From positions 1 to 20,247 of the IMG/VR virus record IMGVR_UViG_3300025687_000437: 20,247 nt of DNA; one strand, given 5' to 3'. Both the position numbers and the translations under genes were made by a program. Shown in pieces: positions 2,224 to 19,727 of this stretch (position 1 is its first letter; every line of letters begins with the position of its first letter). This DNA is from a virus. A model generated the notes under the pieces. The model saw nothing but the letters and a program-made list of their open reading frames with translations. It made no database searches and was not told the DNA's origin.

Positions 2224-2550
2224 GTGGCATTCGTCCTCAAGAAGACTGCTTCCTACAAGTGGGAAGTCAAGGTTGAAGTCCCCGTTGACGGCAACCAATT
2301 TGAAACTCAAGCGTTTGAGGCAGTCTTCAAGAAGATCAGCCGTTCAGCCTTTAATAATCTCGTCGATAAGGGTGATGACGCTCTTGTTGGCGAGATTTTG
2401 CTTGGTTGGGAGGGCATCAATGATGACGCTGGCAAGCCTGTTCCTTTCACGGAAAAAAACAAGCAGCAGCTCTGTGATGATCCTTATGTACTGCGTGCCT
2501 TGATCCAGGCTTACGCAGACAGCCTGACTGGAGTTACCGCAAAAAACTAA
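2224..2550 (+). CDS. Tail assembly chaperone, short form (lambda G-like)
   Basis: A GTG start six bases after the tube stop gives a 108-residue protein with a strand-rich N-terminus (TASYKWEVKVEVPVDG) and a helical remainder ending in DSLTGVTAKN. Position, size and the frameshift at its end identify it as the G-like chaperone of a long-tailed phage. In lambda, gpG coats the tape measure protein and keeps it soluble until tube proteins assemble; it is absent from the virion. The last two codons before the TAA at 2548-2550 lie in an A AAA AAC slip site at 2541-2547, so some ribosomes make the longer G-T fusion. A second in-register A AAA AAC occurs within the gene at 2454-2460. Confidence 0.85.
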   Translation: MAFVLKKTASYKWEVKVEVPVDGNQFETQAFEAVFKKISRSAFNNLVDKGDDALVGEILLGWEGINDDAGKPVPFTEKNKQQLCDDPYVLRALIQAYADSLTGVTAKN

Positions 2551-2584: not shown

Positions 2585-2888
2585 TGTTGATGAGCGGGAA
2601 GCGGATTTAAAAGCTTTGGGTGCCAGCCCAGAGCAAATTGCTGCATCAAAACTGGAGACAGTTGAGCAGCATTGTGAGGTGTGGGAGGAGAACTGGGATG
2701 TTGTGTTGATGTTCGTGCGAATGTCTACACAGTGGCATACGAGCATGGCGGGGCTGACGGGATTGAACTACCCGAGTCTTGAATGGCTCTGTAAGCTGTA
2801 TTCAGTCAAGGATCCTGTTGCCATCTTTGAGGGCGTGCAGGTGATGGAAATGGCAGCCCTTGCCGTTCTGAACGCGAAAAGCAAATGA
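2547..2888 (+). CDS. Frameshift extension of the tail assembly chaperone (T segment of G-T fusion)
   Basis: This segment has no convincing start of its own: the first candidate is a TTG at 2616 without a ribosome binding site. The -1 frame relative to the G-like gene is open from 2478 to the TGA at 2886-2888. Slipping at 2541-2547 joins 108 residues of G to 113 residues that start LKDAAEYWAKGGVV, giving about 221 residues. In lambda, the T part of gpGT recruits tail tube protein to the tape measure-chaperone complex. Here the segment is helical and acidic, with a W-rich region (VWEENWDVVLMFVRMSTQW) and the NYPSLEWL motif. Its stop overlaps the tape measure ATG as ATGA (2885-2888). Confidence 0.85.
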   Translation, partial: LKDAAEYWAKGGVVDEREADLKALGASPEQIAASKLETVEQHCEVWEENWDVVLMFVRMSTQWHTSMAGLTGLNYPSLEWLCKLYSVKDPVAIFEGVQVMEMAALAVLNAKSK

Positions 2889-5266
2889 GCATCACTTCTG
2901 AGATTCGCCTCCGCGTCAGAAAAGAAGGCGATGTTGTGCTGAATCAGCTCAGCGCAAAGCTGAATGATGTTGCGCAGCGTTCAACTTTAACAAGTGCAAA
3001 ATTTAAAGATCTTTCTTCAACTCTTAAGCAAACAGATAATCAAATCAGAACCAAAAGTATTAATGGTCTGAATGACTATGCGCGTGCATGGCGCGAGCTA
3101 GCAAATAGCGTTGATATCACTAGCCGAGAATTTAAAGAGGCAACACGCGAGGCTCAGCGTTTTGAGCAGGCTGCTGCAAAGGCTCAGGGGCGGCGTGGTG
3201 GTGGTCGTTTGGCTGGCATGGCTCGCACTGCAGGTGCAGTGGCTGCAGCGGGCATATTCGGCGGTCCAGAAGGTCTTATTGGCGCCGGTATTGGCGGCAT
3301 TCTTGGTGGCGGTGCGGTTGGCGCAGGCGTAGGCGGTGCAATTGGCGCACAAGTCGGCATGTTCCGTCAATCGCTTGGCGAAATAGCCACTTTTTCAGCG
3401 GAACTTGCTCGTCAAGAGCGAGCATTAGAAGGGGTAGTCAGAACGCAAAATGAATATGCATATGCGCTTGAAGCCGTTGGTAGGGCGACCAAAGATTTCG
3501 CAATTCCTACAAGCGTATTAACTCGTGAATTCACCAAACTGCAGGCTTCTGTTGCTGGTTCTGGTGGCACTGTTGAAGATACTGAGAAATCATTTAGAGC
3601 AATTGTTGCTTCCATCCGAGCCACGGGTGGATCCATTGAAGATGTCAGGTCTGCACTGACTGCCACTGCTCAAGTTTTTAGTAAGGGCAAGGTTTCTGCT
3701 GAAGAACTTCGGCAACAGATTGGTGAACGCTTGCCTGGTGCTTTTACGATCTTTGCTGCGTCAATGAATAAAACGCCAGCAGAGCTGGATAAGGCATTGG
3801 AGAAGGGCGAAGTAAGTCTTCAAGACTTCATGGGCTTTGTTGAAAAGCTGCTTGATGAATACGAAGACAATGCCAAAAAGATTGCAGGCGGACCAGAGGC
3901 TGCGGGTGATCGCTTAAAGGTTGTTCTTGAGGATCTAAAGAAAACAACTGGTCCGATTCTTAAAGATATTGGTTCTTCTTTTCAGTCTTTTGCGGCGGAT
4001 GCAGCCCAAGCGCTTGATGGATTGATCAAGAAAATGGTCGAATTTGGTCGTCAGATGGAAGAAAAGCTTGGCGGACAATTATTGCAAAATGCAATTAAAA
4101 ATGTACAAATACAAGACACAGTTATTAGGCAGCTTGAAGCAGAGGCTCTCGTCAGGGTGGGCGGTTTAAGCGATACCGAAAAACAACAACTGCAATTAGC
4201 AAAAACTTTAAGAGCTGGAAGTTTAAAAGTAATTGAAGGTAGAAAATTTGGACCAGAGTTGCCATCTGCACCCAGCAAATTGCCTGGTGTTGATCCAACC
4301 AAAACCAAAACCAAGACCGGAGGAAAAGGTCAAGCCGATTATTCAGTTGCACTGGCAAATGCTCTTATTGCCGCAGAAAACGAACTGAATCCAATCAAAA
4401 AAATTCAGCTTGAATATGATGCTGAAATTTTAAAAATCAACGAAAGTAAACTTAAGCCTGAGCGGAAAAGGGTTGCTCTAAACGCTGCAAACGTAAAACT
4501 CAACGAGCAATCATTGAAGCTCGGCAATCAAATGGCGGCTGGTAATGCGGCTCTCATTATTAAAGATGGCGAACGCAATCGGCAAATTGAGCAAACAATT
4601 AAAAATCTTGAAATTGAAGCTGGAATTATTGATGAAAAACAAGCAAGGCAAATCGAAAAAGATCGCTTGATACAGCAGCTGAAAAAAGACGGTGCAACTC
4701 TTACCGAAGAGCAATTGCAACGCATTGATAAGGCTTACGAGGGCATCAACAAGAAAACCTCTGAAAGCATGCAGCTGTTCAAGCAGATTGGTCAGAACGT
4801 CGTCTCGGCGTTGTCTGATGCCTTCATGAGCTTGTTTGATCAAGCCAAGTCGCTTCGTGAAGTGCTTACAGATCTGCTTCGCTCCACTGCTCGTCTATTT
4901 GTTGAGTTTGGTTTGCGGGCAGGCATGAAGAGTATTTTTGGCTTTGCCAATGGCGGCATCATGACCGGCAACGGACCACTGCCCCTGAAGCGCTACGCAA
5001 GGGGTGGTATTGCCAACTCACCGCAGCTAGCCATGTTTGGCGAGGGCAGCACTCCTGAGGCTTACGTACCGCTGCCTGATGGTCGCAGCATCCCAGTCAG
5101 GATGAAAGGCGGCGGTGATATGGGCAACATCGTGGTCAACGTTGATGCTGCTGGCAGCGCAGTACAAGGCAACCAGCCTGATGCCAATAAACTGGGTGAA
5201 GCACTTGGCATTGCAGTGCGTCAGGAACTGATTCGCCAGAAGCGTCCCGGAGGCTTGCTCGCATAA
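2885..5266 (+). CDS. Tape measure protein (lambda H-like)
   Basis: This 793-residue protein sets tail length and later helps DNA enter the cell. The N-terminus is a long helical region (to about residue 100). A Gly/Ala-rich hydrophobic stretch follows at about 118-160. The conserved tape measure domain spans about 160-330 and contains SKGKVSAEELRQQIGERLPG (266-285). A long charged helical region then runs to about 660. The end (about 684-745) has the usual repeats around ANGGIMTGNGPLPL, RYARGGIANSPQLAMFGEGS and TPEAYVPLPDGRSIPVRM, as in lambda-type tape measures. Taking about 0.15 nm per residue, the tail would be about 120 nm if the full length counts. The ATG overlaps the chaperone stop. 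The stretch at about 4,080-4,700 is visibly richer in A than the flanks, which may reflect a mosaic history. Confidence 0.93.
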   Translation: MSITSEIRLRVRKEGDVVLNQLSAKLNDVAQRSTLTSAKFKDLSSTLKQTDNQIRTKSINGLNDYARAWRELANSVDITSREFKEATREAQRFEQAAAKAQGRRGGGRLAGMARTAGAVAAAGIFGGPEGLIGAGIGGILGGGAVGAGVGGAIGAQVGMFRQSLGEIATFSAELARQERALEGVVRTQNEYAYALEAVGRATKDFAIPTSVLTREFTKLQASVAGSGGTVEDTEKSFRAIVASIRATGGSIEDVRSALTATAQVFSKGKVSAEELRQQIGERLPGAFTIFAASMNKTPAELDKALEKGEVSLQDFMGFVEKLLDEYEDNAKKIAGGPEAAGDRLKVVLEDLKKTTGPILKDIGSSFQSFAADAAQALDGLIKKMVEFGRQMEEKLGGQLLQNAIKNVQIQDTVIRQLEAEALVRVGGLSDTEKQQLQLAKTLRAGSLKVIEGRKFGPELPSAPSKLPGVDPTKTKTKTGGKGQADYSVALANALIAAENELNPIKKIQLEYDAEILKINESKLKPERKRVALNAANVKLNEQSLKLGNQMAAGNAALIIKDGERNRQIEQTIKNLEIEAGIIDEKQARQIEKDRLIQQLKKDGATLTEEQLQRIDKAYEGINKKTSESMQLFKQIGQNVVSALSDAFMSLFDQAKSLREVLTDLLRSTARLFVEFGLRAGMKSIFGFANGGIMTGNGPLPLKRYARGGIANSPQLAMFGEGSTPEAYVPLPDGRSIPVRMKGGGDMGNIVVNVDAAGSAVQGNQPDANKLGEALGIAVRQELIRQKRPGGLLA

Positions 5267-14382: not shown

Positions 14383-14868
14383 ATGAAAGTAAAAGCTACT
14401 GGCGTAAGTAAGCATCCCCTGTACTCAACTTGGATGAGCATGAGGGCGAGGTGCAATAAAGTAAATCACAAACACTATTCCAGTTATGGCGGCAGGGGAA
14501 TCAAGGTCTGTGATCGCTGGAGCATTGCCGACGGCGAAGGCACGGGTTTTATGAACTTCGTGCGTGACATGGGTGAAAAGCCTTCACCTGATCACACGCT
14601 TGAAAGAATCAACAACGACGGACCGTATTCGCCTGAAAACTGCTGCTGGGCGACTTGGGACGTTCAAATAGCGAACAAACGCAGGCGTAATCGTCCGTCA
14701 CCCGGAGAAACAAACCCTGCAGCCAAACTCAGCAACATTGAAGCTTCTGAAATCGTCTGGCTTGCCGGTTGTGGTGCGCGAGTTGTGGACATTGCCAAGG
14801 CGTACAACATTTCAAGATGCCACACCTACAAAATTATTAGTGGTCAACGGTCTTCTGCTCTAGCCTGA
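14383..14868 (+). CDS. HNH-type homing endonuclease with C-terminal helix-turn-helix
   Basis: The ATG follows the previous stop with no gap; the product has 161 residues. The N-terminus has HPLYSTWMSMRARC, YSSYGGRGIKVCDRW and FMNFVRDMGEKPSPDH. The core TLERINNDGPYSPENCCWAT contains the HNH-like residues: D70-H71, N77/N78, N86-C87 and N98. This is a frequent free-standing endonuclease family in phage genomes. After GETNPAAKLSN (about 109-119), residues about 119-157 look like a helix-turn-helix (ASEIVWLAGCG, VVDIAKAYNISRCHTYKII) that would bind the target DNA. Such genes spread by cutting copies of the locus that lack them. Its placement among fibre genes without disrupting either neighbour fits that. 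The target site cannot be read from one sequence. A non-homing nuclease is the alternative. Confidence 0.72.
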   Translation: MKVKATGVSKHPLYSTWMSMRARCNKVNHKHYSSYGGRGIKVCDRWSIADGEGTGFMNFVRDMGEKPSPDHTLERINNDGPYSPENCCWATWDVQIANKRRRNRPSPGETNPAAKLSNIEASEIVWLAGCGARVVDIAKAYNISRCHTYKIISGQRSSALA

Positions 14869-18085: not shown

Positions 18086-18325
18086 ATGGACAACCGCTTG
18101 TCACTGCTCGGTGGTGCACTCGCGTTGCTAACCACTGTTGTGGCGACGACGGTCACCATCGACTCGCGTTACGCCAAGTCAGCAGAAGTCAAACAGCAAT
18201 TTTGCCAAGCACGCAAACAGCAACTGCGTGACCGTATTTTTGAGCTGGATCTAAAGAATCCCAAAACACCAAACGACAGAGCGTTGCGAGAATATCTGCA
18301 ACAGCAACTTCGTGATGGATGCTGA
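18086..18325 (+). CDS. Small N-terminally membrane-anchored protein in lysis region
   Basis: This 79-residue protein has a hydrophobic stretch at about 6-25 (LLGGALALLTTVVATTVT) after a short positive N-terminus. A charged helix follows (SAEVKQQFCQARKQQLRDRI, FELDLKNPKTP, REYLQQQL). One anchor followed by a charged helix is the layout of inner-membrane spanins and holin-associated proteins. Its place before an M15 peptidase agrees with a lysis role, but no lipoprotein (o-spanin) partner is visible in the window. The gene starts right after the previous stop and overlaps the next ORF by 11 bases. Call it a membrane protein of unknown function, possibly lysis-related. Confidence 0.65.
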   Translation: MDNRLSLLGGALALLTTVVATTVTIDSRYAKSAEVKQQFCQARKQQLRDRIFELDLKNPKTPNDRALREYLQQQLRDGC

Positions 18326-18476: not shown

Positions 18477-18680
18477 GTGGATCCTTTTCTGACGCCATTG
18501 GTAACGGCTGCAATTATTGCCGGTGTCAGTGCGCTTTGGAGGATCGATAAGCGAGCCAGCGTGATGGATGCTCGCATGGCTTTGATTTTGGAGCAGATCA
18601 CGGCTTTGCGATCAGACCATAAAGAAAGACTGGACGATCACGAAATCAGGATTCGCTCTCTGGAACAAGGTCGCAAATAG
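18477..18680 (+). CDS. Small membrane protein with coiled coil, putative holin accessory (XhlA-like layout)
   Basis: The GTG start is supported by AGGAG at 18466-18470. The 67-residue product has a hydrophobic segment at about 4-21 (FLTPLVTAAIIAGVSALW). A heptad-like helix follows (MALILEQITALRSDHKERLD, then DHEIRIRSLEQGRK). The ending is like that of XhlA-type haemolysin/holin accessory proteins, although in that family the membrane segment is often at the C-terminus. It could help to form or time a membrane lesion with the neighbouring small membrane proteins. The evidence is layout only, so the name is tentative. It ends 30 bases before the next ORF. Confidence 0.62.
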   Translation: MDPFLTPLVTAAIIAGVSALWRIDKRASVMDARMALILEQITALRSDHKERLDDHEIRIRSLEQGRK

Positions 18681-18710: not shown

Positions 18711-18848
18711 ATGGACTTTCTCAACGAAGCTTGGTTTTGGGTGCTGATCGGTGCAGCGTCTGAAATCATCGGCATGTCGCCTTTGAAGTCGAACAGCGTA
18801 ATTCAGCTTGTGCTGACTGCTGTCAAATCGCTCAAGCCAAAAAAGTAG
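18711..18848 (+). CDS. 45-residue membrane microprotein, short (0-frame) product
   Basis: An ATG at 18711 gives 45 residues: MDFLNEAWFWVLIGAASEII, then GMSPLKSNSV, IQLVLTAVKS and LKPKK. It has a hydrophobic/aromatic N-terminal helix (about 3-21), a short turn, an amphipathic helix (about 29-41) and a basic tail. Short proteins with the same W/F-rich, A-A-S-E-I-I-G, K-S-N-S-V-I/V-Q-L pattern are, to my memory, widespread in cyanophages without assigned function. The last codons are CCA AAA AAG TAG, which form an in-register A AAA AAG slip site followed by a large stem-loop, so a longer form is probable. The 30-base leader has no Shine-Dalgarno sequence; CATACT at 18702-18707 is too close to the ATG to be a convincing -10. 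Confidence 0.72.
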   Translation: MDFLNEAWFWVLIGAASEIIGMSPLKSNSVIQLVLTAVKSLKPKK

Positions 18849-18911
18849 ACGGCATCCCTGCGGACGGGCGCTGGCTTTATCGGTTCAGCACCCGTTCCAG
18901 TTGGGATGTTG
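18839..18911 (+). promoter_or_regulatory. Probable programmed -1 frameshift signal: A AAA AAG plus nested stem-loop
   Basis: A AAA AAG at 18839-18845 is in register with the 18711 frame (cc-A AAA AAG TAG). Downstream, C18850-G18911, two G-U pairs and CATCCC (18853-18858) with GGGATG (18903-18908) form an outer stem. An inner stem pairs 18862-18874 with 18885-18897, with one C-A mismatch (18869/18890) and two G-U pairs. The spacer is 4 bases to the first pair, or 7 to the perfect core. Slip site, stop, spacing and structure all fit a stimulated -1 frameshift. Confidence 0.68.
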
Positions 18912-19147
18912 CTAATCGCGCCATTCAAGCGCGGAAATTTCATACTATTTTGCCGCACAAAATTGATGCAGAGGTTGAGCGTGTAGCCGAGATCATTGAT
19001 TTAGAACTGGAGCGGCAGAAGCGGCATCCAGAAATTAAACACGAAGAGCCAACACCTGAGCAGACCGGCGATAGCCGTTTACTCGGTGGACCGATGTCAA
19101 TTTCTTCACCTTGGGACGATGACCCAGAACCGCCTTCGGCTGCATGA
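18845..19147 (+). CDS. Probable -1 frameshift extension of the membrane microprotein
   Basis: This frame is open from upstream of 18845 to the TGA at 19145-19147. It has no ATG, GTG or TTG until a TTG at 18950 that lacks a ribosome binding site. The part before that TTG still reads like protein: VDGIPADGRWLYRFSTRSSW, then DVANRAIQARKFHTI. Slipping by -1 at 18839-18845 joins 45 residues of the microprotein to 100 more, giving about 145 residues. The extension has a mixed N-terminal part, a charged helix (DAEVERVAEIIDLELERQKR) and an acidic, Pro-rich tail (SPWDDDPEPPSAA). It has no membrane segment, so it would be a soluble domain on a membrane anchor. The end overlaps the M15 peptidase start by 29 bases. 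I do not recognise a family. Confidence 0.65.
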   Translation, partial: VDGIPADGRWLYRFSTRSSWDVANRAIQARKFHTILPHKIDAEVERVAEIIDLELERQKRHPEIKHEEPTPEQTGDSRLLGGPMSISSPWDDDPEPPSAA

Positions 19148-19727
19148 CTTGTTCCGGTATTACAAGGAATTGCCGCATCAGACTGCTGCGATTACGGAAC
19201 TTGAGGAGGCAATCCTCAAGAAGTCGCCTGCGATTTTTAACCGCGACCAAGAGTGGTTTAAGACTTGGAGCCAGGCAGGAAAACAAGTCGAGACCTCTCC
19301 TAAAAGCTTGTTCACTCCTGATAAGCCTTGGAGTTTCAAGGTCACTCCAAACGTGACTTACGGCGAACTGACGCTGAATGAAGAGGAGCGTCGTTTTACT
19401 AAGCAACAACAATGTGATACCGCCTTGGAATTGTGCAAGTACTTAGAAAAAGTGCGGGCACATTTTGGCGGCAAGCCAATTGTAATTACTAGTGGTCATC
19501 GTCCAGCGGCAATCAATCAACGTGTTGGCGGCTCTAGCCGGTCGGAGCACTTGTACAACATGGATGGCGTCGGCGCTGTTGACTTTTACATCGCTGGCGT
19601 CGATATCTACGCAGTACAGGAGTATGTTGATCAAACTTGGCCGTACAGCCTTGGATACGGCGCACCGAAAGGGTTCGTGCATCTAGGCAAGAGGCTGGGT
19701 GGTCCACGCATTCGATGGAATTACTGA
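19119..19727 (+). CDS. M15-type peptidase, probable endolysin
   Basis: With the ATG at 19119 the product has 202 residues; an in-frame GTG at 19086 would add 11. Residues about 119-202 form an M15A-type zinc peptidase domain: VITSGHRPAAINQRVGG, then SRSEHLY, a loop, GAVDFYI and GFVHLG. The likely zinc ligands are H144, D155 and H188, with R128 in SGHRP typical of the family. Between H144 and D155 there are ten residues, about four more than in the usual S-x-H-x-x-G-x-A-x-D motif. The N-terminal part (about 1-115) is helical and charged and may bind the cell wall or regulate the enzyme. These enzymes cut peptide cross-links in peptidoglycan. No signal peptide is seen, so release would need a holin; the small membrane proteins upstream are candidates. 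Confidence 0.8.
   Translation: MTQNRLRLHDLFRYYKELPHQTAAITELEEAILKKSPAIFNRDQEWFKTWSQAGKQVETSPKSLFTPDKPWSFKVTPNVTYGELTLNEEERRFTKQQQCDTALELCKYLEKVRAHFGGKPIVITSGHRPAAINQRVGGSSRSEHLYNMDGVGAVDFYIAGVDIYAVQEYVDQTWPYSLGYGAPKGFVHLGKRLGGPRIRWNY

Follow-up and report, generated by a model that had tools for sequence, protein, structure and literature searches.

Predicted -1 ribosomal frameshifting at the end of a small lysis-cassette gene in Synechococcus-type cyanophages

Does the small gene at position 18711 of this phage DNA give rise to a single membrane-type protein, or do some ribosomes leave its reading frame at the end and produce a second, longer form? The window, by which we mean the whole stretch of 20,247 nucleotides that was analysed (positions 1 to 20,247 of the IMG/VR virus record IMGVR_UViG_3300025687_000437), has the gene content of a tailed phage, and its relatives among named records are Synechococcus phages. 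The initial annotation of this DNA had pointed to an A AAA AAG slip site placed directly before a large hairpin, and a base-by-base inspection located the heptamer at 18839-18845. We consider it probable, at roughly 85%, that ribosomes undergo a programmed -1 shift at this site, within a small gene that belongs to the lysis cassette of a Synechococcus-type cyanophage. Sequence comparison strongly supports a shift at the A AAA AAG itself, since slip site, -1 frame and position before the stop codon are conserved in more than 100 relatives.

Reading frames around the slip site

The 0-frame ORF (18711..18848, plus strand) encodes a basic protein of 45 aa (predicted 5.0 kDa) with a borderline hydrophobic segment and the C-terminus ..KPKK at the slip site. 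It matches phrog_22542 (E 1.6e-19), the PHROGs family for the short form, which is 49 aa long and has no function assigned in PHROGs. The slippery heptamer A AAA AAG (AAAAAAG; 18839..18845, plus strand) is phased to the 0 frame of this ORF and is followed immediately on its 3' side by the stop codon TAG (18846..18848, plus strand). On the same strand, the -1 frame is open from 18764, behind a stop at 18761, to 19147. Its part upstream of the slip (18764..18844) contains no ATG, GTG or TTG, and the earliest start-like codon is a TTG at 18950, within the conserved domain. The -1-frame extension (18845..19147, plus strand) comprises 100 aa, contains a DGRW..FSTRS domain and the C-terminal motif TGDSRLLGGPMSISSPW, and is conserved among relatives (pN/pS 0.19). 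The -1 frame has no upstream start, and a shift at the heptamer would therefore yield, beside the 5.0-kDa short form, a product of 45 + 100 = 145 aa (16.3 kDa; 18711..19147, plus strand), to which fused homologues align end to end.

According to the mechanism that we propose, the majority of ribosomes would read 18711-18848 to the stop and give the 45-aa membrane-type protein. A fraction of them would pause on the A AAA AAG through the downstream hairpin, perhaps through the adjacent stop codon too, and the two lysine tRNAs would slip one base back, from AAA-AAG to AAA-AAA. Translation in the -1 frame would then run to 19147 and give a 145-aa protein in which the same N-terminus is followed by a soluble domain and the ..I..PW motif. 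Both products would have one start site, and the signal would set their ratio. Stimulation by the hairpin, the efficiency of the shift and membrane insertion are parts of this scheme that we infer, and the two forms may work together to time or localise lysis, the short one in a holin-like way and the extended one as a modulator or tether.

The whole window was scanned for heptamers (X XXA AAZ or X XXT TTZ) lying at the end of a 0-frame ORF, immediately before its stop codon, and leading into a long -1 frame. Two places were found, the one at 18839 and one at 2541 (A AAA AAC TAA). The latter slip site (2541..2547, plus strand), located before the TAA at 2548, belongs to the tail assembly chaperone pair, and its 113-codon -1 frame reaches the tape measure gene (2885-5266). 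It is the classical tail assembly chaperone frameshift and serves as an internal comparison of the same layout as at 18839. Among dsDNA phages, the G/GT -1 frameshift of tail assembly chaperones (lambda G-GT) is a conserved feature (Xu, Hendrix and Duda, 2004, cited in PMC3483164). The site at 18839 resembles it in that an X XXY YYZ heptamer closely precedes the stop of the 0 frame and in that a -1 shift would give two forms with a common start, one short and the other extended at its C-terminus. It differs in that the 18711 gene encodes a small membrane-type protein adjoining an endolysin and does not stand before the tape measure gene. A family match that would indicate homology of the 18711 gene product to tail chaperones was not found.

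The E. coli dnaX gene has a Shine-Dalgarno stimulator upstream of its slip site. Unlike in dnaX, no Shine-Dalgarno-like stimulator was detected upstream in the window, and one was present in 4 of 53 representatives. The outcome differs as well, the dnaX shift leading to a shorter product and the shift proposed here to a longer one. Common to both are the identical heptamer, a downstream hairpin and, as predicted here, a reliance on the lysine tRNA UUU (PMC5009743).

Conservation and selection across the junction

Relatives were collected by searches with the fused protein, with its alignment and with the N-terminal part of a relative, which together gave 171 records including the window. All counts are based on the 134 of these records that are distinct around the junction, and every one of them carries the 45-aa domain. 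In 115 of the 134 distinct loci, a canonical X XXY YYZ heptamer precedes the 0-frame stop by 0 or 3 nt (101 A AAA AAG, 11 C CCA AAG, 2 G GGA AAG and 1 A AAA AAC), and 114 of these 115 have an extension in the -1 frame of 40 aa or more (40-109 aa). The extension was also present in 70 of the 80 loci retrieved by the N-terminal part alone, a query that cannot favour it. Upstream of the slip, the -1 frame is without a start codon in 105 of the 115 heptamer loci. All 19 loci without a slip site are also without the extension, and the two parts fused in one frame were not seen among the 134 distinct loci. Two lysines are written A AAA AAG at all 101 A-type sites, as compared with 3 of the 155 lysine pairs that occur in other long ORFs of these loci, and the need to encode lysine therefore does not account for the slip site.

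The long form might also be produced by transcriptional slippage on the A6 run instead of ribosomal slippage. Slippage of the polymerase on runs of A is well established as an alternative (for a review, see PMC5009743), and a run of six is mildly prone to it, but 13 distinct relatives with C CCA AAG or G GGA AAG, in which runs do not exceed three or four, keep the same frame relation. Moreover, slippage by tRNAs is what X XXY YYZ phasing, together with a structure that starts 4-7 nt downstream, typically marks, and we regard an origin in transcription as very unlikely. A homopolymer of six A is likewise a frequent place of indel errors, which could suggest that the sequence was misread or misassembled, or that the gene was broken recently. 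The chance of this is negligible, and for the family it is refuted, as over 100 distinct contigs share the arrangement with isolate genomes that were sequenced separately (S-CBS1, S-CBS3, KBS-S-2A, S-EIVl, S-B28, WH11-B and 7B11-B), and as selection acts on both sides of the junction.

This selection was analysed in 94 pairs of relatives. Substitutions at the three codon positions numbered 460/211/1222 in the 0 frame before the slip and 727/420/1900 in the -1 frame after it, with third positions predominating in both. The corresponding pN/pS values were 0.18 and 0.19, as against 1.2 to 2.6 in the other frames; after the slip, the remaining two frames gave 1.24 and 2.02. For the first 12 codons past the slip, pN/pS in the -1 frame was 0.11. 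Because selection switches there, with 0.11 from the first codons, we take the slip site to be the point where ribosomes enter the -1 frame and consider a separate downstream start unlikely.

These values bear on the alternative that the -1 frame is a separate gene, with its own start or with reinitiation at the 0-frame stop, and that the slip site is incidental. Such an arrangement would agree with the 0-frame stop falling within the -1 ORF, with the annotation of S-CBS3 and S-CBS1 as two hypothetical genes, and with the Cyanobium locus L175, which lacks a canonical heptamer and has a GTG overlapping the stop. It has a slim chance of being correct, since the -1 frame of the window offers no ATG, GTG or TTG until the one inside the conserved domain, and conservation begins at the first codon after the slip. 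In addition, if the -1 frame had a start of its own, A AAA AAG, C CCA AAG and G GGA AAG would not be held in register where the 0 frame ends.

The 45-aa domain also occurs without slip site or extension, ending in AAG AAA or other codons, in the loci L009, L028-L031, L060-L067, L081, L088, L090 and L134-L148. These lineages represent natural losses and could reveal the purpose of the long form. At 3140-3160 of L175, the sequence reads C CCC AAG TGA with the GTG overlapping the stop, and a switch from frameshifting to reinitiation is possible in this locus.

In E. coli, a single lysine tRNA has been linked to the slipperiness of A AAA AAG (PMC5009743). A tRNA-Lys pattern covering both anticodons gave one match in the Cyanobium genome of L175, which was UUU (confirmed by ARAGORN), and none with CUU; coming from one genome and one pattern, this result favours slippage at A AAA AAG as supportive evidence only.

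RNA structure downstream of the slip site

By hand pairing, the initial annotation had folded 18850-18911 into a single long hairpin. RNAfold likewise gives one nested stem-loop, located at 18846..18914 (plus strand), which is the presumed 3' stimulator. Its outer stem (18850-18858/18903-18911) contains all of the outer pairs that had been drawn, namely C18850-G18911, G18851-U18910, G18852-U18909 and CATCCC (18853-18858) with GGGATG (18903-18908), and the inner stem proposed at 18862-18874/18885-18897 corresponds to an inner arm that spans 18860-18876/18882-18901. The perfect core begins 7 nt past the heptamer, as had been claimed, and the 9-bp outer stem begins 4 nt past it. A spacer of 4-7 nt in the window agrees with the spacing of about 5-8 nt reported for stimulators (PMC4066793).

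The fold is more stable than expected by chance. Its minimum free energy of -37.7 kcal/mol compares with a mean of -24.1 (sd 3.2) for dinucleotide shuffles, the control that had been suggested along with the hairpin (z -4.29), and 0 of 200 shuffles were as good. Measured against synonymous recodings that preserve the -1-frame protein, z was -4.02 and 1 of 1000 recodings was as stable; coding constraint therefore fails to explain the fold. An Rfam search of the window gave no RNA family match.

A family-wide structure test was carried out on 53 representatives under 80% identity, with z calculated against synonymous recodings. The mean z was -1.74 for the 75 nt past the slip and -1.90 for 90 nt, and segments upstream or further downstream ranged from -0.52 to -0.85. 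The most structured segment in these representatives is the one directly after the slip, and structure declines with distance from there. Stable folding after the slip is thus shared by the family and is not peculiar to the window.

The shape of this structure is another matter. A single conserved stimulator stem for the family was considered and dropped, as RNAalifold yielded no common fold among 41 aligned relatives. Compensatory substitutions, which had been proposed as a mark of a functional stem, found weak support: the pairs of the window are kept in 60.5% of cells among the 41 relatives, compared with 28-48% after displacement of the partner strand by 1-3 columns, but there is no structure common to all of them. 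Fifteen marine relatives possess a separate 27-pair hairpin with two covarying pairs. Relatives with C CCA AAG are nearest to the window in the extension, and in this group no significant structure after the slip was detected (mean z -0.22). From these comparisons, the hairpin appears to differ from lineage to lineage. Known stimulators likewise vary between relatives.

Because no single structure extends across the lineages, we hold the role of the stem at lower confidence than the frameshift. The stem might simply follow from the coding sequence, or serve the mRNA in another way, for example by limiting translation of the endolysin or by protecting the transcript, and the heptamer alone would then cause the shift. 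In E. coli, heptamers of this kind can indeed do without a stimulator (PMC4066793), and the lack of clear structure in the C CCA AAG relatives and of a common fold in the group would be in line with this. We judge it unlikely, yet deserving of some weight, since z reaches -4.0 against synonymous recodings, structure peaks at the slip site and falls off away from there, and the spacing is the one reported for stimulators. The stem is probably a stimulator of the frameshift. What had been claimed of it is borne out by position, by energy and by the family-wide peak of structure next to a strongly supported frameshift, but not by a conserved topology, nor by the C CCA AAG group, in which significant structure was not detected.

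The lysis cassette and its predicted products

The gene upstream of the frameshift gene in the cassette (18477..18680, plus strand) is an ORF for a small protein with an N-terminal hydrophobic segment (hydropathy peak 2.04) and a coiled-coil-like tail, a layout similar to that of XhlA. The window copy gave weak matches alone, to phrog_5225 (E 0.004) and to the holin family phrog_1296 (E 0.18). The genes in the same position in KBS-S-2A, S-CBS3 and S-CBS1 belong to phrog_26178 and are weakly similar to phrog_937 'hemolysin' (XhlA-type; E 5e-4 to 0.03). Downstream lies an endolysin with a peptidase M15 domain (19119..19727, plus strand; phrog_28234 endolysin, E 5e-77; Pfam Peptidase_M15_3, E 3.7e-20). 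Its ATG at 19119 is inside the -1 extension, and the overlap is formed by the final 29 bases of the extension. Of 20 sampled relatives, 13 have an endolysin as the next long ORF after the frameshift gene, as the window does. In T7-like relatives, the frameshift gene adjoins an HNH endonuclease or small terminase gene, and no endolysin is found there.

The endolysins adjoining the frameshift gene (19119-19727 and relatives) have a common N-terminal part, LFRYYK..PHQ, and their catalytic domains differ, being of the M15 peptidase, chitinase-like or lysozyme-like type. The idea that the extension tracks one endolysin type was rejected, as L060-type loci retain the endolysin without slip site and without extension.

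The short form is basic and contains a weakly hydrophobic, borderline segment (peak 1.48) and the conserved polar residues SE.IG.S.LK.NS..Q. The long form adds the IP.DGRW..FSTRS domain and the C-terminal ..I..PW, which are common even to lineages with differing middle parts. Neither the short form nor the extension matched a protein family of known function, and in searches of Pfam, NCBIfam and solved structures no known domain was recognised in either the extension or the membrane part. No holin family was matched by the 0-frame or the fused protein, and no holin is named in the cyanophage records examined. As regards a holin-like context, the small protein adjoins an endolysin, and its hydrophobic segment is borderline.

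The cyanomyovirus proteins of phrog_3316 offer a further point of comparison. The representative in S-CAM7 (AOV62138.1; L171:1267-1653) is membrane-anchored, adjoins lysin and lysozyme-like genes, is encoded in one frame and carries the same C-terminal motif TSLGGEMRLRSPW. The family match is weak (best E 1.4e-5, in L025); the phrog_3316 proteins differ in their N-terminal anchor and in their single reading frame. Since the S-CAM7 protein with this motif is found next to lysin and lysozyme genes, we infer that the long form may act in lysis from a membrane anchor and that the short form may be a truncated partner to it, their ratio being fixed by the frameshift. Neither form has been lost in most lineages, which suggests that both may be needed. 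Possible roles include holin activity, antiholin action and tethering of the endolysin. Tentatively, and with rather less than an even chance of being right, we propose that the frameshift sets the ratio of a short holin-like form to an extended antiholin or endolysin tether, and that lysis timing would in this way be tied to ribosome behaviour in siphovirus-like and T7-like Synechococcus phages.

In phage lambda, the holin forms S105 and S107 arise from dual start codons and differ by two residues. The gene described here would be similar in providing two forms of a small lysis membrane protein, mostly common in sequence and predicted to occur in a fixed ratio. It is dissimilar in using a frameshift and in a difference that amounts to a 100-aa C-terminal domain, and its holin activity is only putative. 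The order of a coiled-coil membrane protein, a small membrane protein and an endolysin is also that of the XhlA/XhlB cassettes (Bacillus PBSX), but the hosts here are cyanobacterial and Gram-negative, and any sequence homology of the frameshift gene to XhlB would be conjectural. To our knowledge, a frameshift is not part of any XhlA/XhlB-type system.

Known conserved -1 frameshifts in tailed phages affect mostly tail assembly or capsid proteins. We did not find a published description of a frameshift in a cyanophage lysis-cassette gene in the openly licensed literature, although one may exist elsewhere, and the accessible portions of the PRFect prediction survey, the 2016 recoding review and the GeneTack survey make no mention of a holin or of the 18711 gene. 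The mechanism would be a canonical bacterial -1 frameshift, and it is the gene that appears to be new. In the genome records examined, separate or missing hypothetical proteins take the place of the long product. If a conserved frameshift in the lysis cassette is real, annotation is wrong in many genomes, with the long product missing or split. It would also represent a compact means of holding two forms of a membrane protein at a set ratio and give a testable handle on the timing or localisation of lysis in cyanophages, which are important for carbon cycling in oceans and lakes.

Two further ORFs of the window are worth recording. Upstream of the cassette, a 79-aa ORF (18086-18325) has an N-terminal hydrophobic segment and a polar tail; its family matches are very weak, and it is possibly a candidate spanin component. 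In the tail region, a 161-aa ORF (14383-14868) resembles by eye a homing endonuclease of the HNH or AP2 type.
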